From: a virus
Length of the DNA stretch: 27,784 nucleotides
Virus record (IMG/VR): IMGVR_UViG_3300024346_000400
Span: 1-27,784 of that record
Reading direction: 5' to 3' (one strand)
Shown: positions 4,327 to 27,784 of the stretch, piece by piece
Numbering within the stretch: the first letter of the stretch is position 1
Layout of the letters: the number at the start of each line of letters is the position of its first letter
Made by a program: the position numbers and the translations under genes
The notes under the pieces: model-generated
Told to the model about the DNA's origin: nothing
Seen by the model: the letters and a program-made list of their open reading frames with translations, nothing else
Databases searched by the model: none

Positions 4327-4329
4327 GTT

Positions 4330-5283: not shown

Positions 5284-5325
5284 AAGAATCCCAATATATG
5301 TATATATAACAAAATAATAAAAGCT

Positions 5326-5520
5326 ATGACAAATAAAAAGGATATGACATTAACCTCTGTAAAAGTACAGAGCGAGTTATTCGAGGATTTCAAGATTGCC
5401 TGTGTTAAGTACAAATTTTCTTTACAAAAACTTGCCGACCGCACTATTCATTTGTATCTTACAGATGATGATTTTCGTAAAAAAGTTCATTCACACAACA
5501 ACCTAGAAATTAAAAACTAA
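5326..5520 (+). CDS. Small ribbon-helix-helix-like DNA-binding protein, 64 aa
   Basis: The sequence MTLTSVKVQSELFEDFKIAC (7-26) reads as a short beta strand with alternating residues followed by a helix. A turn (KYKFS) and a second helix (LQKLADRTIHLYLTD) follow, the order expected of MetJ/Arc ribbon-helix-helix repressors. It may be a phage transcription regulator, but no operator was identified. The upstream 42 nt contain an AT-rich TATATATAAC stretch (about 5301-5310) and the leader AATAAAAGCTATG, related to the leader motif used by several genes near 18-23 kb. Confidence 0.65.
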   Translation: MTNKKDMTLTSVKVQSELFEDFKIACVKYKFSLQKLADRTIHLYLTDDDFRKKVHSHNNLEIKN

Positions 5521-5529
5521 AAAATACAC

Positions 5530-6966: not shown

Positions 6967-6967
6967 A

Positions 6968-8260
6968 ATGAAACCGTTATTTATTATAAGCTCAGCTTTT
7001 GACACCTATAGTGGCTATGGTGCTCGTTCAAGAGATTTAATTAAAGCCATTATTGCTACTGAAAAATATGATGTTAAGCTATTGTCCCAAAGATGGGGAA
7101 ATACACCATTTGGCTTTTGTAATGATAATCCTGAATGGAAGTATTTATATGATCTAGCATTACCTAACAATCAATTACCTAAAAAACCAGAAATTTGGAT
7201 GCAAATCACAGTACCTAATGAATTCCAATCAGTAGGAAAATATAATATTGGTTGTACAGCAGGTATTGAAAGTACCATTTGTCCACCAGAATGGCTTGAA
7301 GGTATTAACAGAATGGATTTAACTTTTACCTCATCAGAACATTCTAAAAAAGTATTTGAAGAATCAAAATTTGAAGTAAGAAATAAAGAAACTAATGTTT
7401 TAGAAAAAAATGTAAAACTAGAAAAACCAGTAGAAGTATTATTCGAAGGTGCTAACACAGACATCTATAAAGTAATTAACACACCATGTTCATTGGATAT
7501 TCAAATTAAAGAAAAATTTGCTTATTTGTTTGTTGGACATTGGATGGCAGGTGATATGGGTGAGGACAGAAAAAACGTAAGTTTATTAGTTAAAGCATTT
7601 TATGAAACATTTAAAAATAAAACTAACAAACCCGCTTTAATTTTAAAAACATCTCAAGTAGGTTCGTCTTATGTTGATAGAGAAGAAATATTAAAGAAGA
7701 TTAAACAAATCAAAAAAACAGTTAATTCAAATAATTTACCTAATGTTTATTTACTTCATGGTGAATTTACAGACGAGGAAATGAATGAATTATATAACCA
7801 TTCTAAAGTAAAAGCTATGATTAGTTTAACTAAAGGTGAAGGTTTTGGTCGTCCGTTACTTGAATTTACATTAACTAAAAAACCATTAATTACCTCAGGA
7901 TGGAGTGGACAAATAGATTTTTTAAATCCTGAATTTACTAATTTAATTAGTGGTCAGTTAACTCAAGTTCATCCTAGTACCTTAAATCAATTTTTAATTC
8001 CTGAATCTCAATGGTTTTCTCCTGATCATGGTCAAGTAGGACATTATCTTAAAGATGTATTTGAAAACTATAAAAATTATACTGAAAAGGCTAAACGTCA
8101 AGCATTTAAAAGCAAAAACGAATTTAGTTGGGATAAAATGAAGGAGAAAATAGATATACTTTTAACCCAATTCATTCCCGAATTTCCTAAAGAGGTAAAA
8201 TTAGCACTACCTCAACTTAACAAAATTCAATTACCAAAATTACAAAAAACAAATGGATAA
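6968..8260 (+). CDS. GT-B glycosyltransferase (GT4-like), 430 aa
   Basis: The N-terminus has SSAFDTYSGYGARSRDLIKA (8-27), the acceptor-domain glycine loop of GT4-type enzymes. The donor domain contains FVGHWMAGD, a lysine-rich stretch and the E-x7-E motif EGFGRPLLE (291-299), then TSGWSGQIDFL. It is a probable sugar transferase using a nucleotide-sugar donor in the cytoplasm. It follows the preceding GT-B gene by one base and overlaps the next gene by 8 nt, so it belongs to a continuous operon. The C-terminal 30 residues (LALPQLNKIQLPKLQKTNG) look like a flexible tail. Confidence 0.86.
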   Translation: MKPLFIISSAFDTYSGYGARSRDLIKAIIATEKYDVKLLSQRWGNTPFGFCNDNPEWKYLYDLALPNNQLPKKPEIWMQITVPNEFQSVGKYNIGCTAGIESTICPPEWLEGINRMDLTFTSSEHSKKVFEESKFEVRNKETNVLEKNVKLEKPVEVLFEGANTDIYKVINTPCSLDIQIKEKFAYLFVGHWMAGDMGEDRKNVSLLVKAFYETFKNKTNKPALILKTSQVGSSYVDREEILKKIKQIKKTVNSNNLPNVYLLHGEFTDEEMNELYNHSKVKAMISLTKGEGFGRPLLEFTLTKKPLITSGWSGQIDFLNPEFTNLISGQLTQVHPSTLNQFLIPESQWFSPDHGQVGHYLKDVFENYKNYTEKAKRQAFKSKNEFSWDKMKEKIDILLTQFIPEFPKEVKLALPQLNKIQLPKLQKTNG

Positions 8261-8708
8261 TCTAATTAGTTGTGCTCGTTGTGGGTCAGATGCCTGTTAC
8301 GTAGACGAAGTAAACCAAGACATTAAAACCCAATTCTGTTATGGTTGTGGTTTTCAGACTAACTCATTAATGAAAGTAGGGGAAGAATTTTACGAACAAC
8401 AAGTAGCAATGTTACCTGAACTTTATAAAGACTTACTTTTAGAGGATCATGAAAATCAAATCTGGATGCCTTCTTCAATCAATATCCCAACTCAGGGAAT
8501 GGTATTTGCTAATGGACCCTCTTCATCAGATTGGGGATGGGCTGCTGTAAAGGCTGTTACTGTAACAGATGAAGAAAAATCTAAATACCCAATTCCCGGA
8601 AAAAAGGGACAATACTATGAATGGAGAATGGATATGACTACTCTTCAAATGTTCCATGAACGTGATTTTATGGAAGCCCTTTCATATATTGGAGTTATCC
8701 CAGAATAA
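8253..8708 (+). CDS. Zinc-ribbon phage protein, 151 aa
   Basis: The N-terminus holds two CxxC knuckles, C7/C10 (CARC) and C29/C32 (CYGC), forming a probable zinc ribbon. The rest contains VAMLPELYKDLLLED, IPTQGMVFANG and a C-terminal YEWRMDMTTLQMF...DFMEALSYIG. From memory this pattern is found in conserved hypothetical proteins of T4-like marine phages. No enzyme motif is visible. It may be a nucleic-acid-binding or regulatory protein and need not belong to the glycan pathway although it lies within it, overlapping the preceding glycosyltransferase gene by 8 nt. Confidence 0.78.
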   Translation: MDNLISCARCGSDACYVDEVNQDIKTQFCYGCGFQTNSLMKVGEEFYEQQVAMLPELYKDLLLEDHENQIWMPSSINIPTQGMVFANGPSSSDWGWAAVKAVTVTDEEKSKYPIPGKKGQYYEWRMDMTTLQMFHERDFMEALSYIGVIPE

Positions 8709-8718
8709 AAATAATAAC

Positions 8719-9861
8719 ATGAAAAAAATATGGTATGCTCCTTATAAGTTTGAATCTTATGGGGAAGAAGAAATTAAAGCAGTAGAAGAATCACTTCGTT
8801 CGGGTTGGTTAGGTGGACAAGGTCCTAAATCTGTTGAGTTTGAAGAAAAAATATCAAAAAGTTTTGGTAAAAAATATGGTGTATTTGTTAACTCAGGTTC
8901 ATCAGCATGCCTGTTAGCTATTGCTGCTTTAGATTTACCTAAAGGATGTAAAATTATTACTCCTGCTTGTACGTTTTCAACTACATTAGCTCCTATTATT
9001 CAATTAGGTTATAAACCTAAATTTGTAGATGTAGGGTTAAATGATTATGTAGCTGATATTGATCAAGTAATTGAAGCAATTACCCCTGATGTAAAAGCAA
9101 TTATGTTACCTAATTTAATTGGTAATAAACCAGATTGGAAACGTTTACGTCAAGAAATTAAATTGTTAGGCAGAACAGATATTATTTTAATTGAGGATTC
9201 AGCTGATACAATTACTGAAACCCCAGAAAGTGATGTAGCTACAACTAGTTTTTATGCTTCACACGTAATTACAGCAGGTGGTGTTGGTGGTATGGTAATG
9301 TTTAATGATAAAAAACACGTTACTAAGTGTCTACAATACAGAGACTGGGGTAGGTTGGGTGATGATTCGGAAATTATGGATGATCGCTTTAATCACATTG
9401 TAGACGGTATTCCTTATGACCATAAGTTTTTGTATAGTGTATTAGGTTATCATATGAAAGCTTGTGAAATGAATGCTGCTTTTGGATTAGTTCAGTTACA
9501 CCGTTTTGAAAAATTCTCACAAATTAGAAGAGAAAATATTGAACGTTATATTGAAAACCTTCAAGGTGTAGGAGATATTATACTACCAGATGATTCTATT
9601 CAACCAAACTGGTTAGCTATTCCTTTACAAACCGAAAAACGATTTGAATTGCTTAATTTCCTAGAAGACAATAACATTCAAACACGAGTAACATTTGCTG
9701 GAAACGTAACACGTCATCCTGTTTATAGAGAGTATCTACAGTCATTTGAAAATGCTGATACTATTATGAAAAATGGTTTCTTATTAGGTGCACACCACGG
9801 AATGACTATTGAGGACGTAGATTACGTTTGTGATAAAATTAAAGAATTTTTCATAAAATGA
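8719..9861 (+). CDS. DegT/DnrJ/EryC1-fold sugar enzyme with His replacing the PLP lysine (3-dehydratase-like)
   Basis: This 380-residue protein has the fold and motifs of PLP-dependent sugar aminotransferases: LRSGWLGGQGPK (26-37), the cofactor loop NSGSSACL (58-65), PACTFSTT (82-89) and IEDSAD (158-163) with D160 for the pyridine ring. Where aminotransferases have SFHxxK, this one reads SFYASHVIT (177-185) with H182. A His for Lys at this site defines the PMP-dependent 3-dehydratases ColD and RfbH/E1, which remove the 3-hydroxyl of 4-keto-6-deoxy sugars. The start at 8719 is preferred over an in-frame ATG at 8656 inside the previous gene because the family opening (WYAPYKFESYGEEEIKAV) begins here. 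The next gene encodes a reductase, a logical partner. Confidence 0.85.
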   Translation: MKKIWYAPYKFESYGEEEIKAVEESLRSGWLGGQGPKSVEFEEKISKSFGKKYGVFVNSGSSACLLAIAALDLPKGCKIITPACTFSTTLAPIIQLGYKPKFVDVGLNDYVADIDQVIEAITPDVKAIMLPNLIGNKPDWKRLRQEIKLLGRTDIILIEDSADTITETPESDVATTSFYASHVITAGGVGGMVMFNDKKHVTKCLQYRDWGRLGDDSEIMDDRFNHIVDGIPYDHKFLYSVLGYHMKACEMNAAFGLVQLHRFEKFSQIRRENIERYIENLQGVGDIILPDDSIQPNWLAIPLQTEKRFELLNFLEDNNIQTRVTFAGNVTRHPVYREYLQSFENADTIMKNGFLLGAHHGMTIEDVDYVCDKIKEFFIK

Positions 9862-10547
9862 AAATAGTTGTATTAGGGGATGGGTTATTAGGTAAAGAAA
9901 TTATCAAACAAACAGGATGGGAATATTACTCCAGAAAAAAAGATAATTTAAATATCAATAATATAGTTACTTGGTCTCATCTCCTATTACCCTATGATGT
10001 TATAGTTAATTGTATTGCTTATACTAAAACATATGATGATAATAAACAACAACATTGGGATGTAAACTATAAAGCAGTAGCAGAATTAGTAGATTATTGT
10101 AATAACCATAATAAAAAATTAATTCATATATCTACTGATTATATTTATGCTAATTCCTTTCAAAATGCAGATGAAGAAATTACAGTTCCTGCTCAAATAG
10201 AAACTTGGTATGGTTATACAAAATTATTAGGTGATGCTTATGTACAATTAAAATCAAAAAATTATTTAATATGTAGAGAATCACATAAACCATTTCCCTT
10301 TCCTTATAAAGAAGCTTGGGATAATGTGGAAACTAATGGAGATTTCGTTAACGTTATAGCAGAATTAATTATTAAATTAATTAATAAAGAAGCAAAAGGA
10401 GTATTTAATGTAGGAACCGAACCAAAAACAATATATGATTTAGCAGTTTCAAAAGGATTTAATGTAAAATCTATAAACTCTCCATCTAATGTTCCTATGA
10501 ATACTACAATGAATTTAAACAAATTAAAAAAATTTTTAAATGATTAG
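9858..10547 (+). CDS. Short-chain reductase, dTDP-4-dehydrorhamnose reductase (RmlD)-like
   Basis: This 229-residue extended SDR protein has a GxGxxG dinucleotide-binding loop in VLGDGLLGKE (5-14). NCIAYTKTY (51-59) follows strand 4, ISTDYIYA (91-98) supplies the catalytic Thr/Ser, and Y118-G-Y-T-K122 is the YxxxK pair. The order is that of RmlD-like enzymes, which reduce the 4-keto group of a nucleotide-bound sugar. It is shorter than typical RmlD (near 290-300 residues), mainly in the C-terminal substrate domain. The ATG overlaps the stop of the His-type dehydratase gene (ATGA), so the pair probably performs deoxygenation followed by 4-keto reduction, as ColD and ColC do for colitose; the actual sugar is not known. 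Confidence 0.82.
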   Translation: MKIVVLGDGLLGKEIIKQTGWEYYSRKKDNLNINNIVTWSHLLLPYDVIVNCIAYTKTYDDNKQQHWDVNYKAVAELVDYCNNHNKKLIHISTDYIYANSFQNADEEITVPAQIETWYGYTKLLGDAYVQLKSKNYLICRESHKPFPFPYKEAWDNVETNGDFVNVIAELIIKLINKEAKGVFNVGTEPKTIYDLAVSKGFNVKSINSPSNVPMNTTMNLNKLKKFLND

Positions 10548-11148
10548 TATAGCAATAACGGTTTGTAATGAATATAAGGAGTTAGAGACTCTATTAGATT
10601 ATTTATCTGAACGGGCTTTATCTCCTGATTATGAAGTAATTGTTCAAATTGATGAACAAAACCATACACCTGAGATAATTCATGTTATTTTAAATAAAGG
10701 TATTAAACATCATTTTTATCCACTAAATAAAGATTTTGCGTCTTACAAAAATGAATTAATTAAACACTGTTCGGGAGAATATATCTTCCAAATAGATGCT
10801 GATGAATTACCTAATGTTGATTTACTTGACATGTTACCTGGTATTTTGAAAGCTAATCCTGAAGTGGATGTATATTTAGTTCCTCGAATTAATACTGTAA
10901 GTGGTATCACCGAGGAACATATCCATAAATGGAAATGGAATGTTGAAGGTGATAGAATTAATTTCCCTGATTATCAATGGAGAATATATAAAAATATTCC
11001 TACAATTAAATGGATAAACAAAGTTCATGAGCGTTTAGGTGGATTTAAAACATATGCTCCATTACCAGCAGAAGATGAATTTTGTTTATTGCATCCAAAA
11101 ACAATAGAACGACAAGAAAAACAAAACGAATTTTATAATAGTATATGA
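10540..11148 (+). CDS. GT-A glycosyltransferase, family 2
   Basis: The 202-residue protein opens with MISIAITVCNEYKELETLLD, the usual GT2 nucleotide-binding strand and helix. YEVIVQIDEQ (31-40) follows, then the D-x-D metal site I85-D86-A87-D88-E89. Later PDYQWRIYKNIP and WINKVHERLGG match the RLF...hE.l.G segment of small GT2 enzymes that elongate lipopolysaccharide cores or modify proteins. It overlaps the reductase gene by 8 nt and the next gene by 4 nt. Confidence 0.85.
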   Translation: MISIAITVCNEYKELETLLDYLSERALSPDYEVIVQIDEQNHTPEIIHVILNKGIKHHFYPLNKDFASYKNELIKHCSGEYIFQIDADELPNVDLLDMLPGILKANPEVDVYLVPRINTVSGITEEHIHKWKWNVEGDRINFPDYQWRIYKNIPTIKWINKVHERLGGFKTYAPLPAEDEFCLLHPKTIERQEKQNEFYNSI

Positions 11149-12011
11149 ATATCATCCCTGTAGCTCGATTGTGGCATAAAAAAGGTAAATTGGAATATTA
11201 CACAATGCTACAATTACAAAAATATTTTCCTGATTTAGAATTTGAATATCATATTGTATTAGACCAATTTGATTATCAAGATGAATGGTCTAAAAAAATA
11301 GATGAATTACCTGTTAAAACTTTTTGGTATTCTAAAGATGACATGCATAACTACTTAAAAAATAGTGGTTATGGAAGTAAGGATTTAATATCTCAAATAC
11401 CTAATTTTGTTCATTTTTATCATATTTTAATTAATCATTATATTAGAAGAACTTATAGATATGACTATAGTTTAATGATTGAATATGATGTTATTTTTAA
11501 TAATAGTTCTTTAGACCAATTAAAAAATTGTTTAGAAAATAAAATACCTTTTGGAATAGTAGAACCCAAAAATCAATGGTGCGATAAAGCTTTAGCTGAG
11601 CAATTATCTAATTTATTCGGAGAGAATATTATTAGATATCCTGAAATTGGAATTAATGCTGGTTTTAAAGGATTAAATTTAAAAATATTTGATGAATTTT
11701 TAAACCCATCTACTTTTAATTTACTATTAAATGTATTTGATTTTTCAGGAATATCTTATGAAGATGGTAGTGAAAAAACAGGATGGGTCAGAACTATTAT
11801 TGATACCCAAGAACAATCATTTCATTCTTTAATGAATACTTTAAGTCCCGATTATGAATTATTAGATCCTAAAGATTATTATGTTTATCCTTATTGGGTA
11901 AATATGGATCACTTAATGAAATCTAAGGTTATTCATTTTATAGGCCATGAAAAACCAGAAGCAATGATTAATATTATTGATAACAAATTAAAACAATGGA
12001 ATAATGATTAA
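11145..12011 (+). CDS. GT-A-like glycosyltransferase, 288 aa
   Basis: Weak but consistent features of a nucleotide-diphospho-sugar transferase are visible. There is an N-terminal strand with RLWHKKGKLEYYTMLQLQKY, an acidic site E113-Y-D115 in SLMIEYDVIF that may replace DxD, then EIGINAGFKGLN (about 167-178), which resembles the NAG motif of GT8-like enzymes, and a terminal SKVIHFIGHEKP (about 260-271) with the His expected to bind the donor diphosphate. The family cannot be fixed from sequence alone. It lies in frame-overlapping order between a GT2 gene and a methyltransferase gene, which supports a role in the same glycan. Confidence 0.7.
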   Translation: MNIIPVARLWHKKGKLEYYTMLQLQKYFPDLEFEYHIVLDQFDYQDEWSKKIDELPVKTFWYSKDDMHNYLKNSGYGSKDLISQIPNFVHFYHILINHYIRRTYRYDYSLMIEYDVIFNNSSLDQLKNCLENKIPFGIVEPKNQWCDKALAEQLSNLFGENIIRYPEIGINAGFKGLNLKIFDEFLNPSTFNLLLNVFDFSGISYEDGSEKTGWVRTIIDTQEQSFHSLMNTLSPDYELLDPKDYYVYPYWVNMDHLMKSKVIHFIGHEKPEAMINIIDNKLKQWNND

Positions 12012-12699
12012 AGAATTTTTAAATGATTTAAATTTAGATAAAACTGGAAGAAAATATTATGATAATTTTGATACATCAATATATGGTGATTCTTTAGCTC
12101 CTGGTTCTGCCCCTGCAGACGAATTATATAAACAATGGATTAGTCTGTATAAACCTAATTTAGTAATAGAAGTAGGCTCATTTCTAGGATACTCAGCTAT
12201 TAATATGGCTAAAGAAATTAAAAAATTAAATCTAGATACTAAAATAATATGTGTAGATACATGGTTAGGAAGTCCTGAACATTATATTAATTTTAAAGAA
12301 ACAAATAATGATGTTTTAAATTATACAAATGGGTATCCTACTTTATATCATAAATTTATATCTAATGTTATATTAAATGATGTACAAGATATTATATATC
12401 CTTTTCCCTTTCCTTCTTCTATCGCCTTTAAAATTTTAGACAAATTATTTAATAAACATAATATTAAAGCGGATTTTATTTTTATAGATGGGTCTCATGA
12501 AGAATTAGATGTACATTTAGATTTATACTATTACTATCAACTATTATCAGATAAAGGAGTTATGTGGGGTGATGATTGGGGATGGGATATGGTTAAAAAT
12601 GGAGTTAATAGTTTTTTACAAGAAAATAAACTTGAATATAACTTTAATTTATTAGAAAATAAAATACATTGGTTTATAGAAAAAAATAATTTAATATGA
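12004..12699 (+). CDS. Class I SAM-dependent methyltransferase (Methyltransf_24-like), second copy
   Basis: Motif I is LVIEVGSFLGYSAINMA (53-69), strand 2 ends in IICVDTW (81-87), and FIFIDGSHEELDV (158-170) gives the D-x-x-H metal-binding signature. GDDWGW (189-194) completes the active site. The same type of enzyme is encoded at 3056, but the two share only the family motifs. It probably methylates a hydroxyl of a sugar made or transferred by the neighbouring enzymes. It overlaps its upstream neighbour by 8 nt and its downstream neighbour by 4 nt. One sampled line in this gene has only 18% G+C. Confidence 0.84.
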   Translation: MIKEFLNDLNLDKTGRKYYDNFDTSIYGDSLAPGSAPADELYKQWISLYKPNLVIEVGSFLGYSAINMAKEIKKLNLDTKIICVDTWLGSPEHYINFKETNNDVLNYTNGYPTLYHKFISNVILNDVQDIIYPFPFPSSIAFKILDKLFNKHNIKADFIFIDGSHEELDVHLDLYYYYQLLSDKGVMWGDDWGWDMVKNGVNSFLQENKLEYNFNLLENKIHWFIEKNNLI

Positions 12700-13688
12700 T
12701 TAAAATAACAAAAAATTCAATAGTTTATGTTTTTGCTCCCTCAGACATAGAAGCTGGAGGTATTGAATGTTCATATAGTTTAGCCGCTGCTTATAAGAGC
12801 TTAGGATTAAATATAAAAATGGTATTAATTCATCCTACACTTCATTGTCAGCATCAACCTAACTGGAAAGAAATTATTAGTGATCCTAAACATTTAGAAG
12901 CAGTTAAAATTCCAGAAGCATATTCTAAATATATTACAAAAGAAGATGTAGTAAATGTAGTTGAAGATAAACCTGAAAACTTAATTATTCTACCTGAAAT
13001 ATGGCCTGATGCTTTAGATAGTTATGTTAATGTCCAAAAAGTAATTTGGTGGTTAAGTGTTGCTAATGGATTAGGTACAGACCAGAAAAACTTTCATTTA
13101 AAATTAACACAACCCCAATATTTAGGAGTTCATCATTTTTATCAATCTCAATATGCTTATTGGTTTTTACTAAATCATGGAGCTCAATATACTTACCCAT
13201 TATTTGATTATATTAATAGGGACTATGTTAATGATGAGTTAACTTTTAAAAATAGAAAAGATGTTGTTTTATATAACCCTAAAAAAGGTATTGAAATAAC
13301 TCAAAAATTAATTGATAAAAATCCTAACATTGAATTTATTCCTTTACAAGGAATGAATAGAGAACAACTTAAAGAATTAATGACCCAAAGTAAAATTTAT
13401 ATTGATTTTGGACATCACCCAGGTAAAGATAAATTTCCTAGAGAAGCAGCTTCCTGTGGTTGTGTTATAATAACATCGTTTGAAGGTAGTGCTCAATTCT
13501 TTAATGATGTTACTATTGATCCTAAATATAAATTTGATAATACAATTGATGGAGTAAGTGATTTAATTCAAGATGTATTTACTAACTACGAAAGTCATTT
13601 TAACAATTTTAACTTATATCGAAAAATAATTAATACTGAGGTTGAAACTTTCAATACTCAATTGAAGAATACTTATTATGAAATATGA
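12696..13688 (+). CDS. GT-B-like glycosyltransferase, 330 aa
   Basis: The N-terminal domain has YVFAPSDIEAGGIECSYSL (10-28), a GT-B acceptor-domain glycine loop. The C-terminal domain has NPKKGIEITQKLI, IPLQGMNREQLKELM and YIDFGHHPGKDKFPREAASC. That last stretch, with the acidic residue before FPREAAS and GCVIITSFEGSA after it, occupies the position of the E-x7-E donor motif. The second acidic position is E in REAA, so the motif is a variant. The product probably transfers a sugar in the island pathway. It overlaps the UDP-galactopyranose mutase gene by 11 nt, suggesting it may use galactofuranose, but that is inference from order only. Confidence 0.78.
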   Translation: MIKITKNSIVYVFAPSDIEAGGIECSYSLAAAYKSLGLNIKMVLIHPTLHCQHQPNWKEIISDPKHLEAVKIPEAYSKYITKEDVVNVVEDKPENLIILPEIWPDALDSYVNVQKVIWWLSVANGLGTDQKNFHLKLTQPQYLGVHHFYQSQYAYWFLLNHGAQYTYPLFDYINRDYVNDELTFKNRKDVVLYNPKKGIEITQKLIDKNPNIEFIPLQGMNREQLKELMTQSKIYIDFGHHPGKDKFPREAASCGCVIITSFEGSAQFFNDVTIDPKYKFDNTIDGVSDLIQDVFTNYESHFNNFNLYRKIINTEVETFNTQLKNTYYEI

Positions 13689-14775
13689 TTATTTAATTGT
13701 TGGTAGTGGTTTTTTTGGTTCAATATGTGCTTATGAATTAAATAAAAAAGGTTATAAAGTATGTGTTGTTGAATCTAGAAATCATATTGGAGGCAATTGT
13801 TATACTTCTAATAAAGAAGGAATAAATGTTCACGAATATGGTCCTCATATATTTCATACTTCAAACGAAGAAGTATGGAAATGGATAAATCAATTTACAA
13901 CTTTTAATAATTTTACTTTACGTCCTGTAGCTAATTACAAAGGTGAAATATATTCATTACCTTTTAATATGTGGACATTTAATAAATTATGGAATGTTAC
14001 TCATCCTCATGAAGCTAAAAAAATAATTGAGGAACAAAGTAGTGAAATTGGTAAACCTAAAAATTTAGAGGAACAAGCAATTAAATTAGTTGGTAAAGAT
14101 GTTTATGAAAAATTAATTAAAGGTTATACTGAAAAACAATGGAGAAAACCAGCTACACAATTACCTAAAGAAATTATTAAACGATTACCTGTTAGATTTA
14201 ATTATGATAATAACTATTTTAATGACAAATACCAAGGAATACCTATTGGAGGTTATACTAAAATATTTGAAAAATTATTAGAAGGAATTGATGTCAAATT
14301 AAATACTAACTACTTTACAGATGAATTACCTGAATACAATAAAGTAATTTATACTGGACCTATTGATAAATTTTATAATTACCAATTTGGTGAATTAGAA
14401 TATAAAACTACCCGTTTTGAACATTTTGAAATGCATAAAAGCAATTATCAAGGTACAGTTATGATGAATTATACTGATAGTGAAACTCCTTTTACTAGAA
14501 TTATAGAACATAAACATTTTGAACCTATAGATTCTGAGTATACCTATGTTACTTTTGAATATCCAACAGAATACAAACCAGAACTAACAGAACCTTACTA
14601 CCCAGTCAATGATGAAGAAAATAATAAAAAATATCTTCAATATAAAAACTTGGCAGAGCAAGAAAAAAATATTATATTTGGAGGAAGATTAGCCGAATAC
14701 AAATATTATGATATGCATCAAGTAATTGAATCGGCTTTAAATAAAATAGAAGAAATATATGAAAATAATATATAG
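13678..14775 (+). CDS. glf: UDP-galactopyranose mutase
   Basis: This 365-residue flavoenzyme is close to the usual length (about 367 in E. coli). It converts UDP-galactopyranose into UDP-galactofuranose through a flavin-sugar adduct with reduced FAD. The FAD-binding loop is LIVGSGFFGSICAYELNKKG (6-25), with the Glu at the end of strand 2 in VVESRNHIGGNCYT. Other conserved segments are HEYGPHIFHTSNEEVW (52-67), YSLPFNMWTFNKLW (94-107) and GYTEKQWRKPATQLP (around 148-162). GGYTKIFEKLL and the C-terminal IFGGRLAEYKYYDM complete the FAD site. All key blocks are present, so it is probably active. The phage would thereby supply UDP-Galf to neighbouring transferases. Confidence 0.95.
   Translation: MKYDYLIVGSGFFGSICAYELNKKGYKVCVVESRNHIGGNCYTSNKEGINVHEYGPHIFHTSNEEVWKWINQFTTFNNFTLRPVANYKGEIYSLPFNMWTFNKLWNVTHPHEAKKIIEEQSSEIGKPKNLEEQAIKLVGKDVYEKLIKGYTEKQWRKPATQLPKEIIKRLPVRFNYDNNYFNDKYQGIPIGGYTKIFEKLLEGIDVKLNTNYFTDELPEYNKVIYTGPIDKFYNYQFGELEYKTTRFEHFEMHKSNYQGTVMMNYTDSETPFTRIIEHKHFEPIDSEYTYVTFEYPTEYKPELTEPYYPVNDEENNKKYLQYKNLAEQEKNIIFGGRLAEYKYYDMHQVIESALNKIEEIYENNI
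14650..14680 (+). promoter_or_regulatory. Possible internal promoter within glf
   Basis: TTGG (14650-14653) and TATATTTG (14673-14680) have the same 23-nt start-to-start spacing as the other promoter-like sites. It lacks the TTCG extension and lies 86 nt upstream of the next start, inside a conserved FAD-site coding stretch, so chance agreement is quite possible. Confidence 0.25.
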
Positions 14776-15445
14776 AATATCAGATGCCGGTTATAGTAAA
14801 GTAAAACCAGATTATATCAATAATGAAAACTGTTTAAAGAATGCCTTAGGAATATTTCCTTGGACTAGATATGATTGGTATGTTATAGCAGATAATATTT
14901 CAGAAGAAACAAATAATATGATTCAAAAATATATTCCTAGGAATCATATTAATTATGTTTCTGTAGGAAATGGAGCTGGAACTTTCAACCTAGCTCTAGA
15001 TGAAGCATTACAATCAGCAGATGATGAGATTATTTATTTTTTAGAGAATGATTACCTACATAAACCAGGAGCAGATAAAATATTAAAAGAAGGATTTAAT
15101 GTTGGATATAGTTACGTAGCATTATATGATCATCCTGATAAGTATATTGATGGAGCAAACCCACTTGTTGAAGATGGTGGTGAGGTAACTAGAGTTATGA
15201 TATCTAAGTCATGTCACTGGAAAATAACTAATTCAACAACAATGACATTTGCCGCTCAAGTTAAAACCTTAAAGAAAGATGAATCAATTTTAAGAAAATA
15301 TACATCTGGTTCATATCCTAGAGATTTTGAAATGTTTCTAGCTCTAAGAGAAAAACAACACGGATTAATAACACCAATACCTGGATATTCAACACATGGG
15401 GAAACAGCATGGTTATCACCTTTAACAGATTGGAGTCAAATATGA
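14759..15445 (+). CDS. GT-A-like glycosyltransferase, 228 aa
   Basis: The protein starts KIIYRISDAGYSKVKPDYIN, a strand and loop seen in some phage and capsule transferases. YDWYVIADN and AGTFNLALDEAL follow, with an acidic metal site E96-N97-D98 in IIYFLENDYLHKPGA. The C-terminal YSTHGETAWLSPL carries His and Glu residues placed as in the donor-binding end of GT-A folds. The segment RDFEMFLALREKQHG may be the ED-type acceptor helix. It overlaps glf by 17 nt and the following GT2 gene by 4 nt. The donor is unknown; UDP-Galf is a reasonable guess from adjacency only. Confidence 0.72.
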   Translation: MKIIYRISDAGYSKVKPDYINNENCLKNALGIFPWTRYDWYVIADNISEETNNMIQKYIPRNHINYVSVGNGAGTFNLALDEALQSADDEIIYFLENDYLHKPGADKILKEGFNVGYSYVALYDHPDKYIDGANPLVEDGGEVTRVMISKSCHWKITNSTTMTFAAQVKTLKKDESILRKYTSGSYPRDFEMFLALREKQHGLITPIPGYSTHGETAWLSPLTDWSQI

Positions 15446-16197
15446 TTAGTGTAATTATACCTACATACAAATCACCAGAAGTACTTGATGTTTGTTTAAG
15501 ATCAGCTATCATCGGTCAGAAGCTAAATAATCAAATTATAGTAGTAGTAGATGGGTTTTACGAGGTTAATAAAGAGATTCTTAATAAGTATGAAGACTCT
15601 ATTGAGATTCTAGTTTTAGAAGAGAATGTTGGGCTTTGTAGAGCAACTAATTTAGGAGTTTACAATGCTAAGTTTGATAAGATCTTAATTGTAAATGATG
15701 ATAATGTGTTTCCGGAAGCATGGGATCAAGTGTTACTTGAAGAATATAAACCCGGATATGTACTAACTCCAAATCAAATTGAACCTACTCCCTCTATATT
15801 TAGACAATTCAACATTAAGGATTTAGGTAAAGACCCTAAAACGTTCAACATAAATGATTTTTGGGAATATGAATTTGAAGTTACTGAAGATAAGATAGAA
15901 GAAACAGGATCTACTTTACCCATTTTTATGAATAAGTATGATTACATAAGATTAGGTGGATGGGATGAAAATTATGAAGCGGGGATGGTAGCTGATTGGG
16001 ATTTTTTCCTAAAATGTACTCTATCAGATTTAAAAATGATTAGAACATACAATTGTCATTTTTACCATTTTGCTTCAATTTCAACTAATGGTGAAAAAAG
16101 ACAGCAGGCAGAACAAAAAGGACATGAATATGCAAAATACAAATGGAATAGTAATATTTATTCCCATCCCGAAAATAATTTAAAATTTATATTATGA
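15442..16197 (+). CDS. GT-A glycosyltransferase, family 2
   Basis: MISVIIPTYKSPEVLDVCLR (1-20) is the standard GT2 start. IIVVVDG (32-38) and NVGLCRATNLGV (62-73) follow, then the DD metal pair in VNDDNVF (D86, D87). Further on GGWDENYEAGMVADWDFFLK is the GG(W/F)de...eDwDf acceptor and catalytic segment. The start at 15442 overlaps the previous stop (ATGA) and begins exactly at the family start; an in-frame ATG at 15409 would add 11 residues unlike the family. It is the last transferase of the island. Confidence 0.88.
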   Translation: MISVIIPTYKSPEVLDVCLRSAIIGQKLNNQIIVVVDGFYEVNKEILNKYEDSIEILVLEENVGLCRATNLGVYNAKFDKILIVNDDNVFPEAWDQVLLEEYKPGYVLTPNQIEPTPSIFRQFNIKDLGKDPKTFNINDFWEYEFEVTEDKIEETGSTLPIFMNKYDYIRLGGWDENYEAGMVADWDFFLKCTLSDLKMIRTYNCHFYHFASISTNGEKRQQAEQKGHEYAKYKWNSNIYSHPENNLKFIL

Positions 16198-16352
16198 TAT
16201 TTAAGTTTTATAGCAGAATCGATAAAGACCAAGAAACAATTGGTCGTATAGTTACAACCTCAAGGTTACAAGCAGCTAAATTGTTTGCCGAACGTAAACA
16301 ATTACCTTTAAAAGAATTCTTAAAAGTATTTGGTGTAACAACTATCCTATGA
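16194..16352 (+). CDS. Small phage protein, 52 aa
   Basis: This short reading frame overlaps the previous stop and the next start by four bases each (ATGA at both ends), which strongly supports its being translated. It reads MIFKFYSRIDKDQ, then TTSRLQAAKLFAERKQLP and LKEFLKVFGV. The pattern, a beta hairpin followed by a helix with AAxxFAxxKxLPL, resembles small conserved proteins of T4-like phages as far as I recall. No function is recognised. Confidence 0.72.
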   Translation: MIFKFYSRIDKDQETIGRIVTTSRLQAAKLFAERKQLPLKEFLKVFGVTTIL

Positions 16353-16726
16353 AAAATTTTGGTAAAAATTTAAAAGTTCAACCTAAAAAACGGGTAATGA
16401 ACGAAAAAGATACGTTTATTGACCTTATCGATATTTTTGATAATTGTAATATGCGTACTGAAGAATTTGAAGGTAGTTTTATGTTTAATATTTCATCTTA
16501 TGATGAGCCATTTTATATAATGATAGAAAATTTATTTTTGCTACATTACGGTGAATGGAAAACAGATATTATTCTATGGTGGATTTATGATAGATTTGAT
16601 GAGGAAGGTAATATATCACCTATTGAATTTAATGACCATGATACAGAATCACAAGAACAAGTATTAGTAGAAACCCCAGAACAACTTTGGAATTTTTTAA
16701 AACGACTTGATAAATTAAAAAAATAA
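16349..16726 (+). CDS. Conserved hypothetical phage protein, 125 aa
   Basis: An acidic, aromatic-rich protein. Residues about 20-60 contain DTFIDLIDIFDNCNM and FMFNISSYDEPFYIMIENLF. WKTDIILWWIYDRFDEEG (70-87) is the most family-like segment, and the C-terminus TPEQLWNFLKRLDKLKK is a helix with a typical LW pair. Similar proteins occur in T4-like phages, in my recollection, without a known role. It overlaps the small upstream gene by 4 nt. Confidence 0.75.
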   Translation: MKNFGKNLKVQPKKRVMNEKDTFIDLIDIFDNCNMRTEEFEGSFMFNISSYDEPFYIMIENLFLLHYGEWKTDIILWWIYDRFDEEGNISPIEFNDHDTESQEQVLVETPEQLWNFLKRLDKLKK

Positions 16727-16729
16727 AAT

Positions 16730-17035
16730 ATGGTTATAAGACATTGTACAGGGTGTGGAGAGCAAATCCACCCCAAACGTTTAGAAATTATGCCTACAAC
16801 AACTCGTTGTGTTGCTTGTTCAACAGTACAGAAAAAGGGAGCAGTAACAGTAATGAAGGGAACAGGTGATCATACTTGGGTAGAAACAATTCATTTAGAA
16901 CATGATGAATTTAAAAAGTATATGGAGGCAGAAAACAAGTTACGTAAAAACGGAACAGTATTGTTAGAAGATCCTGAAACATCTACAGATATTCCTTTTG
17001 GATTCAGCGAAACTAAAATAGAAAAAGATGCCTAA
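16730..17035 (+). CDS. DksA/TraR-type C4 zinc-finger protein, 101 aa
   Basis: CTGCGEQIHPKRLEIMPTTT (6-25) followed by RCVAC contains C6, C9, C27 and C30, matching the C..CG..I...RL...P....C..C finger of DksA/TraR proteins, which act in the RNA polymerase secondary channel. Here the finger is at the N-terminus and the DksA coiled coil with its acidic tip is absent, so the polymerase-binding mode of DksA is unlikely to be kept. The remainder, including VETIHLEHDEFKKYMEAENK, is of unknown function. It overlaps the next gene by 8 nt. Confidence 0.8.
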   Translation: MVIRHCTGCGEQIHPKRLEIMPTTTRCVACSTVQKKGAVTVMKGTGDHTWVETIHLEHDEFKKYMEAENKLRKNGTVLLEDPETSTDIPFGFSETKIEKDA

Positions 17036-17669
17036 AGCAAAACCACTATCCAAAGAAATGATAGTGGCGGCAATGAATAAAACTAAGTCTAACAAAGCCG
17101 CCGCTCGTTACTTGAATGTATCCTACATTCACTTTAAAAAATGGGCTAAACTTTACAATGATATCCAAACGGGTGAAGTATTGTTTGATAAGCATAAAAA
17201 CCAATCAGGTAAAGGTATACCTAAATTTTTAAGCAATGGTAACCCAAGAAAAGATTTTGCTTTATTAGATTTAATTGAAGGTAGAATCGACCCATCCTCA
17301 TTCAACCCAGCTAAAATTAAGTATCGCTTAATTCAAGAGGGTTATATACAAGAGGAATGTACATCGTGTGGTTTTCATGAACGTAGGGTATTAGACTATA
17401 AAATGCCCTTAATAATGAATTTTAAAGATGGTAATAAACAACATTATCGACTTGAAAATATTCAATTATTATGTTACAACTGTTATTATCTTCAGATTGG
17501 GGATTTATTTACAGGTAAACAACTTGAGGGAATGGAAGACCACGTATCTAAAAATGAATCTAAAGTTGATTGGGAGGTAGATGATTATACTGCTCAACGA
17601 TTAAAGGAATTAGGATTATATGATTCTAAACCAGTTGATGATGGAAGTGAATATATTTCTCGTTTTTAA
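17028..17669 (+). CDS. HTH protein with degenerate HNH/zinc domain, 213 aa
   Basis: Residues about 10-42 form a Fis/HTH_8-like helix-turn-helix (NKTKSNKAAARYLNVSYIHF, then KKWAKLY). A second domain has C111/C114 and C149/C152 around MPLIMNFKDGNKQHYRLENI, QLLCYNCYY. This is the HNH frame (CxxC ... H-H-x-D-G-N ... N ... LCxNC), but the His residues before the DGN are replaced (LIMNFKDGN). Zinc binding should remain while nuclease chemistry is doubtful, so a DNA-binding or regulatory role is more likely than a homing nuclease. A perfect 8-bp hairpin (17043-17050 with 17060-17067) lies just after the start codon. Confidence 0.8.
   Translation: MPKAKPLSKEMIVAAMNKTKSNKAAARYLNVSYIHFKKWAKLYNDIQTGEVLFDKHKNQSGKGIPKFLSNGNPRKDFALLDLIEGRIDPSSFNPAKIKYRLIQEGYIQEECTSCGFHERRVLDYKMPLIMNFKDGNKQHYRLENIQLLCYNCYYLQIGDLFTGKQLEGMEDHVSKNESKVDWEVDDYTAQRLKELGLYDSKPVDDGSEYISRF
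17043..17067 (+). promoter_or_regulatory. Start-proximal hairpin in the HTH/HNH gene
   Basis: CCACTATC and GATAGTGG pair perfectly over 8 bp around a 9-nt loop, beginning 15 nt after the A of the start codon at 17028. A stem at this place can slow initiation or serve as a binding site for the encoded protein. This is inferred from position only. Confidence 0.35.
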
Positions 17670-17678
17670 TATTTATAA
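17667..17678 (+). repeat. Intergenic 12-mer TAATATTTATAA, copy 2
   Basis: Begins with the stop codon of the HTH/HNH gene and ends 2 nt before the start at 17681. It is identical to the copies at 606 and 20758. Confidence 0.45.
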
Positions 17679-17680
17679 GC

Positions 17681-17866
17681 ATGGTTAAAAAAATACCATT
17701 GCTAAAAAAGAGTAAGCACAAAAAACATGATGCTATTGTAAACGATTTTGAAAATCAAAAAAACAAACATCTTGAAAAACTTGCCACAAAGAGTTTGGTT
17801 GAGCAAGAGAAACTTAGTAAATTAAAGGAAAAGAACATTAAAACAGATTTTTTTAAATTATTTTAA
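17681..17866 (+). CDS. Small lysine-rich helical protein, 61 aa
   Basis: The protein opens MVKKIPLLKKSKHKKHDAIV and continues with a long charged helix (ENQKNKHLEKLATKSLVEQE, KLSKLKEKN) that may form a coiled coil. There are no cysteines or membrane segments. The strong positive charge suggests nucleic-acid or protein binding; no family is recognised. The spacing to both neighbours is short, so it is probably cotranscribed. Confidence 0.65.
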   Translation: MVKKIPLLKKSKHKKHDAIVNDFENQKNKHLEKLATKSLVEQEKLSKLKEKNIKTDFFKLF

Positions 17867-17869
17867 ACC

Positions 17870-18202
17870 ATGGTAGCAGAAATCACAGTAAACAATTCAG
17901 ACGAATTTCAAGAGTTAGTAGACCAAAAAGATTTTAGAATATCTAAAGCAATTGTAGAGGGTATTTTAGATAATGTTAATTCAAAGAAAAAATACGTACA
18001 TGTTTTATCTGTCACTTGTCTTGAAGACGATCAGATATATGATATTACAGTCGAACGTAAACACTTTGCTGAAACATTAGAGGAAAATTTACCTTACTAC
18101 ATTAGAGAAGAACAATATGAGGATTGTCGACGTATTGTAAGCACAATTAATGAGTTAAAAAATCCTATTGTTAAACAAAGAGGTAGACCAAAAAAATCTT
18201 AA
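17870..18202 (+). CDS. Hypothetical phage protein with C-terminal AT-hook-like tail, 110 aa
   Basis: The N-terminal 95 residues (EITVNNSDEFQELVDQKDFR, AIVEGILDN, KKKYVHVLSVTCLEDDQIYD, ITVERKHFAETLEEN) look like a small alpha/beta domain. The protein ends VKQRGRPKKS, where RGRPKK matches the GRP core of an AT-hook that inserts in the minor groove of AT-rich DNA. A similar RRGRP occurs near the N-terminus of the protein at 20335. A DNA-binding role is plausible; otherwise the function is unknown. Confidence 0.7.
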   Translation: MVAEITVNNSDEFQELVDQKDFRISKAIVEGILDNVNSKKKYVHVLSVTCLEDDQIYDITVERKHFAETLEENLPYYIREEQYEDCRRIVSTINELKNPIVKQRGRPKKS

Positions 18203-18208
18203 TTTAAC

Positions 18209-18239
18209 GTGGCAAGTCAAAATCTTGTCATTATATTTC
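18209..18239 (+). promoter_or_regulatory. Bacteroidota-type promoter with overlapping hairpin
   Basis: GTGG (18209-18212) and TATATTTC (18232-18239) show the same 23-nt spacing as the other sites of this class; the gene start at 18257 is 25 nt after the TATATT start. A 7-bp stem with one G-U pair (18210-18216 with 18224-18230), followed by a T-rich stretch, overlaps the spacer and could also act as a weak terminator of the upstream operon. Confidence 0.5.
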
Positions 18240-18256
18240 ACTCAAAAATAAATGTT

Positions 18257-18559
18257 ATGAAAAATTTAATCACAGAAGAGTTTAAGACAAAATTTAAAGC
18301 AGGATTTGCTCGCTTTATGAACATTACAATTGTAGCATCAACTTTGATTGCTGGTTTTGGTTTAGGTTATTACTTTAATGAATTAAAAATGAAACCTAAA
18401 GCTGTTAATGAAACTATCCTAAATAAAGAAGTTAGGATTGCTATTGACAGTGAAAATAAGCTTATTGTTATGGATAGAAAAACTGGCCAGTATGTTATTT
18501 ATAGTGATTCTGTTGGTAAAGCTATCTTTAACATGTATGCTACTAAAATAGCTCAATAA
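18257..18559 (+). CDS. Single-pass membrane protein, 100 aa
   Basis: The ATG at 18257 follows the leader AATAAATGTTATG, related to the leaders of five nearby genes; a GTG at 18209 in the same frame lies within the promoter and is rejected. A basic amphipathic N-terminus (KTKFKAGFARF) precedes a membrane segment at about 21-40 (MNITIVASTLIAGFGLGYYF). The following soluble part (RIAIDSENKLIVMDRKTGQY, VIYSDSVGKAIFNMYATKIAQ) is probably periplasmic. It overlaps the transglycosylase gene by one base, so a role in lysis or cell-wall access is plausible. No spanin lipobox is seen. Confidence 0.72.
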   Translation: MKNLITEEFKTKFKAGFARFMNITIVASTLIAGFGLGYYFNELKMKPKAVNETILNKEVRIAIDSENKLIVMDRKTGQYVIYSDSVGKAIFNMYATKIAQ

Positions 18560-24280: not shown

Positions 24281-24427
24281 ATGTGGTTACAAAATAATTT
24301 TAAATCGATTATGAATGTTGGATTGGCTTTAATTTTAGGTTTGAGTTTTATGGAGGCAAGACAAACTCATAAACAAATTAAGAAAGGTGAGGCCCAATGG
24401 TTATTAAAGAAAAAGAAAAAGAAATGA
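24281..24427 (+). CDS. Small membrane peptide with lysine tail, 48 aa
   Basis: MWLQNNFKSIMNVGLALILG, LSFMEARQTHKQIKKGEAQW and a run of lysines make up the frame. A single hydrophobic helix is predicted at about 9-24. The stop overlaps the ATG of the adhesin-like gene (ATGA at 24424), and it begins 13 nt after the SGNH gene, so the three genes are probably one transcription unit. The function is unknown. Confidence 0.6.
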   Translation: MWLQNNFKSIMNVGLALILGLSFMEARQTHKQIKKGEAQWLLKKKKKK

Positions 24428-27400
24428 AAAAACTACTATTATTATTTACATTTTTGTTTAGTTTTTTAACTATTCAAGCTTCTCATATGATGGGTGCGGA
24501 TGTTTCTTATAAATGTTTAGGAAATGGTAAATATAAAATAACCGCTAAGGTATATCGAGATTGTCGAGGTATTCCAATGGGTATTGTCTCGTTTGGAGCA
24601 TATGCTGGAACAAATGGTGGAAACGGTTGTGGTAGTTATACTTTAAGTGGATTATCAAGAGTAAAAATTACTGATATTACGAGCCGATGTTCGACTGCAA
24701 GCTCACCTTGTTCACCATCTAATTCAACAACTGGTAATCAGGGAACCGAAGAACATACGTTTGAGGCTACAGTTGATTTTAATGCATCGCCGTTAAATAA
24801 TTTTTTAAATAAATCAACGTGTTGTGAGGTTACATTTTATGTAAATGAAAATGCTCGTAATGGGGCTATTACTACAGGTGCTTCGGGACAAAACTTTTAC
24901 TCTACTTGTATGATTAACATTTGTAATCTAAAAAAGATGAAGGACAAATGTAATAACTCACCACAATTGAGTAACCCACCGTTTGCAATCCTATGTTGTA
25001 ATCAACCTTGGTATTTTAATAACGGTGCGATTGATACATTAGATTATGATTCAATTTCATATAGGTTAGTAGATGGGCTACAAGGTATACCAAATACTTC
25101 AATTACATATACATCTCCATTTTCATCACAATATCCGATGACCCCGTTTTGTGTGCCGCCAACAACAATTAAGTGTGCTCCAAATCCAAAAACATCGCCT
25201 CCTCGAGGTTTTTATTTTGATACTGCTAATGGTGATGTAATTGTAACACCCACTAAATGTGATGAAGTACCTGTGCTTTGTATTGAACAGACTGAGTGGC
25301 GAAAAGATACATCAGGAGTTTATAGAATTATAGGTAAAACAAGAAGGGATATGCAGCTATGGGTTAGGGATGATTGTGGTTATAATAAGAGTCCTGTAAT
25401 CAATGGACCATTCTCATATAAAGTGTGTGAGGGTGAGAAATTATGTTTTAAAATTAAAATAACTGATGAAACTTTTACACCGTTTCAAACAACACCCGAT
25501 ACTGTTTTAGGTAAATGGAATGCTGGTATTCCAGGAGCAACATTTAAAGTTGTTGACCCAAAATTACGTGAAAAAGAATATGAGTTTTGTTGGACACCAC
25601 CAATTGGTTCTGCGTCTGATGTGTTGTATTCATTTACTGTTACGGCAACGGACCAACACTGTTCACCACCAGCAAACTCCATTCGTTCATTCAAGGTTAA
25701 GGTAAATCCAAAACCAACGTCTAAACGTAGATACACTCAATTAAAGTGTGGAAGATTTGCTATGGAATCGTATAACATATATGCTGCCAATAGTTACTCT
25801 TGGAGCGTGAGAGATACCTTGGCAAAAGAATTATTTTATTCAACCAAGAAAACAGATACGATGAATTATTACTATGGTGGAAAATACATCATAGTTCATA
25901 AGTTAATCAGTTCAAGTTCATGTGTTACCATCTATAGTGATACGGTAATCTTAACTCAACCACCAAAAGTAATTTTGGCTAAGGCGGATAGTTTTGCTTG
26001 TTATGGTGCAACATTCACATTAAAGGCAAAAGTTATCGCAGGTAAACCCACATTGAAATACAAGTGGAACAACGGTGATACTTTGGATTACACTACCGTT
26101 AAAAACTTTAAGAAAGATTCAACTTTGATGTTGGAGGTTACTGACGGGGATGGTTGTAAATTCCGTGACACAACTTATACATTTGTTAAACCATTACCTG
26201 TAATAAATTTGGGTTCTGATAAAGTCATTTGTACGTATGAAACAAATACATTTGATGGTCAGAACAATGATACTGTAAAGTATTTGTGGAGTAGAGGTGA
26301 TACAACTCGTTATATCACAACCAATCTAAAAGGATTGTATTGGGTAAAAATTACTGATAAAACATTTAAATGTATTAAATACGACACAGCATTACTTGTT
26401 GTTAATGATACTGTAATATCAAATGCGGGACTAAACCAAGCAATATGTGATAAAGACACATTCACCTTGACTGCTAGTCATAGACCACCACTATTAAGTC
26501 CTACATATACTTGGGGTGGATTGGGTAATTTATCAACCTATAAGTTAAAATCTGATATCACAAAATCAGCCTATAGGTTTACTTTAAAAACGGTACTAAC
26601 TCAAAACGGACATGCATGTGAAAGCATGGATACAATGTTTGTAAGGGTTAAACCATTACCAAAAATTAGTTGGAGTCCAAAACCATTGAAACCACAATGT
26701 TATTCTTATGGTAGTATATGGTCAGAAACATTCTTGGTTAAACCTCATAATCTTGGAACATATGATGTTTGGAATGGAGACAAGTTCAAAAAATCAGGTA
26801 ATATAACTTACGGATATATTCCTTATAATGGAAGATTTTTATTCAACACAACCTTACTTGACAATACCAAACTACAAGGTGGTAACAATTACACCACAAA
26901 AATGTATGTTAAGTTCAACGACACAAATGGTTGTTCTAATATAGATTCAACAACTCAAACCATATATGGTACACCATTAATTACATTGGTTCCAAAAACT
27001 ATTTGTCAGGATATTGGGTCAATGATGATGGATGTGTTAAGAACCAAACCAGCAACCAAATCAGGTGTATACATGAGATGGGATGTTGTAAGAGCACCAT
27101 CAGGAATTGATACATCAAAATTATTGTATGATATTTCAGGTGGGAATACACCAAACATTAAATTTAATTTTGGTTTATCGTTCCAAGATGAATATCAAGG
27201 AAAATACACATTCAAACTTATTGTTAGAGATTTAGTTACAGGATGTCAAAGTACAGATACTGTTGATGTAAATGTAATTGCAGAACCAACAGTTATTATT
27301 AAAACAATTCCTGATTATTGTGTGAACTCAGGTATTAATGTTAATATGTTTGACTACATAACCGTTAATGGTGTTAAACCAACAGGTGGAACAATTTACA

Positions 27401-27784
27401 TTCAAGATGTTAATGGTGATAGAGGTCATCCAAAGGTAACAACAAACATCTCAACAGGGGTATTCAAAACAAGTACGGGACCTGGTGTATACAACATAAA
27501 ATATGTGAGTTCACAATTTGGTTGTACAAGGATTGATAGTTTCAATATTATAGTTCATGATACATCTGACCTTAGGGTTAAAGATACCACAATATGTGCA
27601 TCGGCAATTCCTTTGGACGTGTTAAAGTTGGCTGTAAGTAATAAAGGTGGAACCATTGTAAGTTATCCTGATGGTAGATTCTTCAACGGAACAACAACAC
27701 CAACAGGTTATGTACCAGGTCCATACAAATGGATGATGATTGGTCTTACACCATATAACTGTCAAGATACTGAATACGCTAAAA
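24424..27784 (+). CDS. Large secreted PKD/Ig-like surface protein, Bacteroidota gliding-motility-associated type (3' partial)
   Basis: The frame stays open to the right edge, giving at least 1,120 residues. MKKLLLLFTFLFSFLTIQA is a Sec signal peptide with likely cleavage before SHMMGA. SHMMGADVSYKCLGNGKYKI (20-39) and KVYRDCRGIPMG are the hallmark of Bacteroidota secreted proteins often annotated as gliding-motility-associated. The first about 430 residues are rich in cysteines. From about 510 onward PKD-like modules repeat a pattern of Gly-x-x-x-x-Ile-Cys, a strand pair with Y-x-W, then C-x-x-x-DT and a PLP linker (for example KPLPVINLGSDKVICTYETN and FVRVKPLPKISW). In bacteria such proteins are usually exported by the type IX system through a C-terminal domain, which lies beyond the window. 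A signal peptide is not expected for a virion part. Confidence 0.9.
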   Translation, partial: MKKLLLLFTFLFSFLTIQASHMMGADVSYKCLGNGKYKITAKVYRDCRGIPMGIVSFGAYAGTNGGNGCGSYTLSGLSRVKITDITSRCSTASSPCSPSNSTTGNQGTEEHTFEATVDFNASPLNNFLNKSTCCEVTFYVNENARNGAITTGASGQNFYSTCMINICNLKKMKDKCNNSPQLSNPPFAILCCNQPWYFNNGAIDTLDYDSISYRLVDGLQGIPNTSITYTSPFSSQYPMTPFCVPPTTIKCAPNPKTSPPRGFYFDTANGDVIVTPTKCDEVPVLCIEQTEWRKDTSGVYRIIGKTRRDMQLWVRDDCGYNKSPVINGPFSYKVCEGEKLCFKIKITDETFTPFQTTPDTVLGKWNAGIPGATFKVVDPKLREKEYEFCWTPPIGSASDVLYSFTVTATDQHCSPPANSIRSFKVKVNPKPTSKRRYTQLKCGRFAMESYNIYAANSYSWSVRDTLAKELFYSTKKTDTMNYYYGGKYIIVHKLISSSSCVTIYSDTVILTQPPKVILAKADSFACYGATFTLKAKVIAGKPTLKYKWNNGDTLDYTTVKNFKKDSTLMLEVTDGDGCKFRDTTYTFVKPLPVINLGSDKVICTYETNTFDGQNNDTVKYLWSRGDTTRYITTNLKGLYWVKITDKTFKCIKYDTALLVVNDTVISNAGLNQAICDKDTFTLTASHRPPLLSPTYTWGGLGNLSTYKLKSDITKSAYRFTLKTVLTQNGHACESMDTMFVRVKPLPKISWSPKPLKPQCYSYGSIWSETFLVKPHNLGTYDVWNGDKFKKSGNITYGYIPYNGRFLFNTTLLDNTKLQGGNNYTTKMYVKFNDTNGCSNIDSTTQTIYGTPLITLVPKTICQDIGSMMMDVLRTKPATKSGVYMRWDVVRAPSGIDTSKLLYDISGGNTPNIKFNFGLSFQDEYQGKYTFKLIVRDLVTGCQSTDTVDVNVIAEPTVIIKTIPDYCVNSGINVNMFDYITVNGVKPTGGTIYIQDVNGDRGHPKVTTNISTGVFKTSTGPGVYNIKYVSSQFGCTRIDSFNIIVHDTSDLRVKDTTICASAIPLDVLKLAVSNKGGTIVSYPDGRFFNGTTTPTGYVPGPYKWMMIGLTPYNCQDTEYAK

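Follow-up and report, generated by a model that had tools for sequence, protein, structure and literature searches.

The right end of the viral sequence analyzed here (the window, which is an entire linear IMG/VR virus record of 27,784 bp with genes nearly all in the same direction) is best explained as encoding a phage version of an order-specific host surface protein, probably displayed on the infected cell, where it may alter adhesion or phage adsorption. Beyond a domain match, phylogeny indicates that phages, among them several large viruses of freshwater Bacteroidota, capture and re-capture parts of this host surface protein, repeatedly its front third, and keep the secreted version under purifying selection. 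The features of the window are collected in Table 1. Small phage genes come after the sugar-gene run and are followed by the SLT gene, the SGNH/GDSL gene and the surface gene, and an SGNH/GDSL gene also adjoins or lies near the surface gene in five related contigs (L005, L054, L055, L056 and L057). The presence of sugar genes, a secreted protein and an SGNH hydrolase in the window suggests a surface-remodelling programme. Translation of the 48-codon open reading frame and the surface gene is possibly coupled via their ATGA overlap.

Table 1 Positions of features in the window and of secretion cargo genes in the related phage contig L002
Feature	Position	Strand	Remarks
Phage clamp loader	window left end		phrog_168, E 4e-33
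GIY-YIG (SegE-like) endonuclease, likely homing endonuclease	639-1283		directly after clamp-loader gene
Sugar-gene run	3056-16197		several GT2/GT4 glycosyltransferases, DegT aminotransferase, RmlD-type reductase, UDP-galactopyranose mutase, methyltransferase
SLT-type transglycosylase with N-terminal hydrophobic segment	18559-19098		among small phage genes
SGNH/GDSL hydrolase with N-terminal hydrophobic segment	23572..24267	+	Lipase_GDSL_2 E 1.5e-9; synteny
Hydrophobic open reading frame, 48 codons	24281..24427	+	stop overlaps surface-gene start (ATGA), read from sequence
Secreted surface protein gene	24424..27783	+	1120 codons present, cut by contig end; ~1512 expected from relatives
Sec-type signal, residues 1-19	24424..24480	+	by eye; similar starts in every complete homolog
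N-terminal domain region (SHMMG...), residues 20-459	24481..25800	+	modelled chain of beta-sandwich modules; portion exchanged with host alleles
PKD/Ig-like repeat region, residues 460-1120	25801..27783	+	phage-specific in trees from ~residue 700
L002 T9SS cargo genes	4983-6734, 9938-14479, 16550-18439		three within 14 kb: one type A, two type B

The reading frame of the surface gene (24397/24424..27783, + strand) is open to the contig end and gives 1120 aa when counted from the ATG at 24424. Its product begins with MKKLLLLFTFLFSFLTIQA-SHMMGADVSYKCLGNGKYKI, in which a basic start, a hydrophobic core and an AxA-like end were recognized by eye. The signal is followed by a domain of the form SHMMG...YKCLGNGKYKI, with the motif SHMMGADVSYKCLGNGKYKI in the window protein. 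Further downstream, residues 592-634 (nt 26197-26325) matched PKD_4 (PF18911) with an E-value of 6e-6 and 26.6 bits at a cut-off of 27, and the same family was found with 55.5 bits in the complete relative L002. The Sec signal, SHMMG start and PKD-like repeats reported in the initial annotation of this DNA were all seen in the window reading frame. Its description of the protein as giant was generous, given that complete relatives have ~1,512 residues. A search against PHROG profiles produced no match for the window surface protein.

Proteins 54-75% identical to the window protein are encoded in independent viral contigs (L002, L003 and L053-L057) and measure 1511-1513 aa when complete, so the window gene is not a chance occurrence. 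The surface gene lies among phage genes on contigs of 295 kb (L002), 233 kb (L004), 74 kb (L053), 134 kb (L055) and 107 kb (L056), and a T4-type major capsid gene, gp23, was identified on four contigs (L002, L004, L055 and L056). Phage genes flank the surface gene on both sides in these relatives. Furthermore, the genes found between 16.3 and 24.6 kb of the window are colinear in the independent contigs L003 (39 kb) and L005 (18 kb), both of which include the surface gene and the latter also the SGNH gene. A chimeric join near 23.5 kb was ruled out by these two colinear contigs. The claim of the initial annotation that the gene is phage-borne was borne out by a search in related phages, which located it on several phage contigs. 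Its reference to lysogenic cells went unsupported, as no tyrosine integrase was detected in the ten phage contigs searched, all of which may be fragments, and the capsid-bearing relatives are T4-type.

In complete relatives on other phage contigs, the C-terminus consists of a type B sorting domain for the type IX secretion system (T9SS; CHU_C / TIGR04131). In the three relatives tested (L002, L003 and L005), matches to CHU_C and TIGR04131 (TIGR04131 / PF13585) scored 40-42 bits, above the curated cut-off of 35, and CHU_C was present in 9/9 related phage records. The window contig stops before the gene ends, which would account for the absence of the sorting domain. From about residue 720 onwards (the last 400 residues), the window protein is ~95% identical to that of L002, which continues into the sorting domain, and over the last hundred window residues it is ~93% identical to that of L005. 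The assembly may plausibly have stopped at the window end because several phages are nearly identical there. The type IX C-terminal domain that had been predicted for the protein was therefore found in complete relatives, while the window's own end lies past the contig. The type A domain (PF18962) was not found on the complete relatives of the surface protein, which carry type B there, and occurs on a separate 583-aa protein of L002. The full-length architecture is kept in all complete phage copies save the shortened copy of L005.

Searches with the N-terminal domain identified 39 bacterial loci (L014-L052) with up to 72% identity, nearly all in Bacteroidota assemblies, which agrees with the earlier assignment to a Bacteroidota-type surface protein. 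Several of the assembly titles point to lakes or ponds. A scan of the genome collection with the full-length alignment returned no bacterial matches, its patterns having been derived from the C-terminal region, a part not shared with hosts. Complete bacterial copies have 1493-1572 aa and the same ending as the phage copies, and two of them (L039 and L041) share a conserved chromosomal neighbourhood, judged by eye, of aminopeptidase, isoaspartate methyltransferase, sugar kinase and aminotransferase genes. In one Bacteroidota order, the N-terminal domain was detected at E<=1e-80 in 100 of the 108 genomes, with 1-10 copies each. When a phylum sample of 395 genomes was analyzed, only the centre genome itself reached E<=1e-80, with nine others at ~1e-11 to 3e-20. 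Close family members are thus almost confined to one order, in which the phage hosts are predicted to lie. These bacterial homologs have the same architecture and a similar length, and most are 54-72% identical to the phage N-terminal domain. In contrast, their C-terminal two thirds form a clade apart from all phage copies, to which they are ~20-60% identical. We also observed that 25 of the 39 bacterial contigs end inside the surface gene; among those with a length of 20 kb or more (19 contigs) the number was 11, compared to ~1.6 expected by a rough estimate, which suggests strain-level variation or several similar copies.

Phylogenetic trees of separate segments revealed a mosaic history. 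In the N-terminal tree, phage copies occur in three places: the window groups with L053-L057, L003 lies beside the bacterial L018 and L022, and L002 falls inside a bacterial group (L030, L041 and others), with the starred branches forcing at least three changes. Monophyly of the phage copies was rejected for this segment (p-AU 5e-5), also after removal of L002 (9e-4) or L003 (2e-4). For the three later segments, all phage copies formed one clade apart from the bacterial copies (support 99/99, 100/99 and 100/100). Nucleotide comparisons located one of the exchanges. L002 and the bacterial L041 are mostly 83-93% identical (77-79% in two intervals) up to about codon 675 and ~50% identical past codon 700, whereas L002 and the window are 53-73% identical before and 86-100% identical after the same place, defining a sharp breakpoint near codon 680. 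On the strength of these trees and identity profiles, the N-terminal ~420-670 residues of the phage copies are judged to be repeatedly of host origin. With respect to auxiliary or moron-type genes, both a host-derived N-terminus and a phage location were seen for the surface gene. Simple counting gave dN/dS values of ~0.04-0.27 in nearly all phage-phage segment comparisons, values that are rough, given near-saturated synonymous distances in some comparisons and noise in very short segments. The surface protein appears to be under purifying selection, and neutral decay is unlikely.

From its domain composition, the phage product is very probably a type B T9SS cargo that is displayed on the cell. 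It resembles the Bacteroidota type B cargo SprB (with SprF) and PG1035 (with PorP) in its Sec start, its predicted extracellular location and, in complete relatives, its TIGR04131/CHU_C C-terminus (PMC9143113, PMC12618676). In Flavobacterium johnsoniae, type B cargo needs PorP/SprF-like shuttles, one of which is shared by three orphan cargo proteins that lack a neighbouring shuttle (PMC12618676), and binding of type B cargo at the surface has been described for PorP and SprF (PMC9143113). Because SprB and PG1035 need such a partner, SprF or PorP, the phage protein is expected to need one as well. Unlike these cargo proteins, it is encoded by a phage, and no PorP/SprF shuttle (PF11751) was found in the ten phage records; each of five host-type genomes contains 4-6 copies of PF11751. 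Following this reasoning, the phage-made protein would enter the host Sec pathway and be exported by the host T9SS during infection. As orphan type B cargo, it would then be passed to a PorP/SprF-like shuttle of the host and end up displayed on the infected cell. The displayed phage copy would then replace, or stand beside, the homologous adhesin-like proteins of the host.

The retention of phage-specific C-terminal two thirds together with the uptake of host alleles at the N-terminus suggests that the N-terminal domain has a host-specific surface partner, which it most likely needs to match, mimic or compete with. The benefit would most likely lie in surface remodelling, by which a structure that competing phages use is hidden or replaced (superinfection exclusion), or in a changed stickiness of infected cells. 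We favour a look-alike that masks a host structure or competes with it. As to the single functions, surface masking or superinfection exclusion is a possibility that falls short of being probable, and adhesion or aggregation of infected cells, which we propose tentatively, is nearly as likely as the look-alike or masking reading. More doubtful is a specific form of mimicry, in which a phage-specific stalk would carry an N-terminal face renewed from the alleles of the current host, and the resulting look-alike coat, exported via the host type IX system, would block rival phages. If it were true, the 189 stretches encoding type B sorting domains found in a scan of viral contigs would make the strategy widespread.

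A neutral account of the exchanges, under which the gene was captured once for a general role and N-terminal segments have since been swapped through similarity alone, with no selection for host matching, is likewise possible without being the probable one. Nucleotide identity between phage and host copies peaks in the N-terminal part (~65%, compared to ~50% beyond), so homologous recombination is easiest there, and the bias of the swaps may simply mirror the most conserved, best-recombining part of the gene. However, in the locus shared by L002 and L053 the surface protein is just 62% identical, while several neighbours are 89-93% identical (others 48-77%), a divergence far exceeding that of several neighbouring genes that suggests variants are kept, and the selection acting on the whole protein also argues against neutrality. 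An adhesin of the infected cell, sticking to particles, algae or other such cells and aiding phage spread without masking of receptors, is a tentative alternative. A model of the N-terminal domain built from 44 sequences was of fair to good quality (pLDDT 81, pTM 0.81), while prediction from three sequences reached only pLDDT 41.7. Its last module (residues 301-412) resembles the cadherin/Ig-like modules of the adhesins SraP and GspB (Z ~10 over ~100 residues), the stalk is PKD-like, and the gliding adhesin SprB is an example of type B cargo (PMC9143113). The useful structural match is confined to this module, as Foldseek searches with the whole N-terminal model gave poor TM-scores (~0.15-0.2 on the query) that reflect single Ig/cadherin modules. 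As modelled, the cadherin/Ig-like fold of the module is a widespread one that says nothing certain on function, and adhesion alone does not explain the repeated uptake of host N-terminal alleles. A sequence search of the PDB returned no relative of note for either the N-terminal domain or the full protein; one match of the full protein to isochorismate synthase (E 0.004) was weak and taken as chance.

Ig-like and host-derived domains are known from phage virions, and the nearby SGNH hydrolase matches PHROG tail-fibre profiles, both of which would fit a tail or head fibre derived from a host adhesin. Yet a Sec start and a T9SS sorting domain would be pointless for a virion assembled in the cytoplasm and the window protein had no PHROG match, making this origin very unlikely. 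Even less credible is the alternative put forward in the initial annotation, namely that an assembly error or an integration event fused host DNA to phage sequence. It could appeal to the identity of the N-terminal domain with chromosomal proteins, which reaches 72%, and to the G+C content of the surface gene (0.34, compared to 0.30 for the rest of the contig), but it was rejected given the common gene order of L003 and L005, the phage genes on either side in relatives and the phage-only clade of the C-terminal part. Display of a phage-encoded type B cargo by the infected cell is the reading we prefer. It predicts changed adsorption or adhesion of such cells, which is testable in laboratory Flavobacterium, and for uncultured phages the N-terminal allele may mark the host.

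Phage-encoded T9SS cargo has already been published. The 76-kb genome of Cryophage contains three type A T9SS cargo genes, which were called a unique occurrence and for which a hijack of the host system was proposed (Bellas et al. 2020, PMC7468147). As in the present phages, T9SS sorting domains are found there in a Bacteroidota phage, highly variable between variants and perhaps serving superinfection exclusion, and a GDSL lipase domain is among the variable regions (PMC7468147). The Cryophage cargo differs in that its type A domains are attached to an endoglucanase, a glycoside hydrolase 39 and a PA14 protein (PMC7468147), whereas the phages described here have a type B domain on a PKD/adhesin-like host homolog, contigs of up to 295 kb, T4-type gp23 and exchange with host alleles. 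T9SS sorting domains have also been noted in crAss-like phages of Bacteroidota; in the parts of that report available to us, they go with BACON repeats near head genes, and exchange with host surface proteins is not described (PMC6949934). In the open-access literature searched, no paper was found on type B adhesin-like phage cargo exchanging host alleles. What is new is the type B, adhesin-like cargo with an order-wide host homolog and the exchange of host alleles. Phage use of type IX secretion, described for type A cargo in a phage of 76 kb, thereby comes to include large T4-type phages whose cargo is of type B.

Additional cargo and structural variation were observed at the loci of related phages. 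Besides the surface protein, two more cargo proteins are encoded in L002: one of 629 residues that combines CHU_C with a weak RCC1-like match, and the 583-residue protein with a type A Por_Secre_tail, for which L053 encodes a 77% identical partner. With this further cargo in the L002 and L053 phages, the export route may serve several ends. In L005 (6117-7895), ~890 residues of the surface protein have been lost in frame; the signal, the beginning of the N-terminal domain and the C-terminal sorting domain are retained, and the flanks of the deletion junction share just a short imperfect match. We take this loss, without proof, as a real deletion and not an assembler join. As L005 lost most of the N-terminal domain and keeps the signal and sorting domain, the domain would not be indispensable in every phage. 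L004, which is otherwise 99.9% identical to L002, has a direct duplication of ~1.1 kb just downstream of the surface gene (~15232-17400). Among the contigs behind 80 of the 189 viral loci with type B sorting domains (L084-L163), which represent putative phages, 21 have a length of 100 kb or more, and 11 of 200 kb or more. Several places with type B sorting domains also occur in the huge, unannotated phage records LR745206 and LR756502, with four in a record of 635 kb and three in one of 642 kb.
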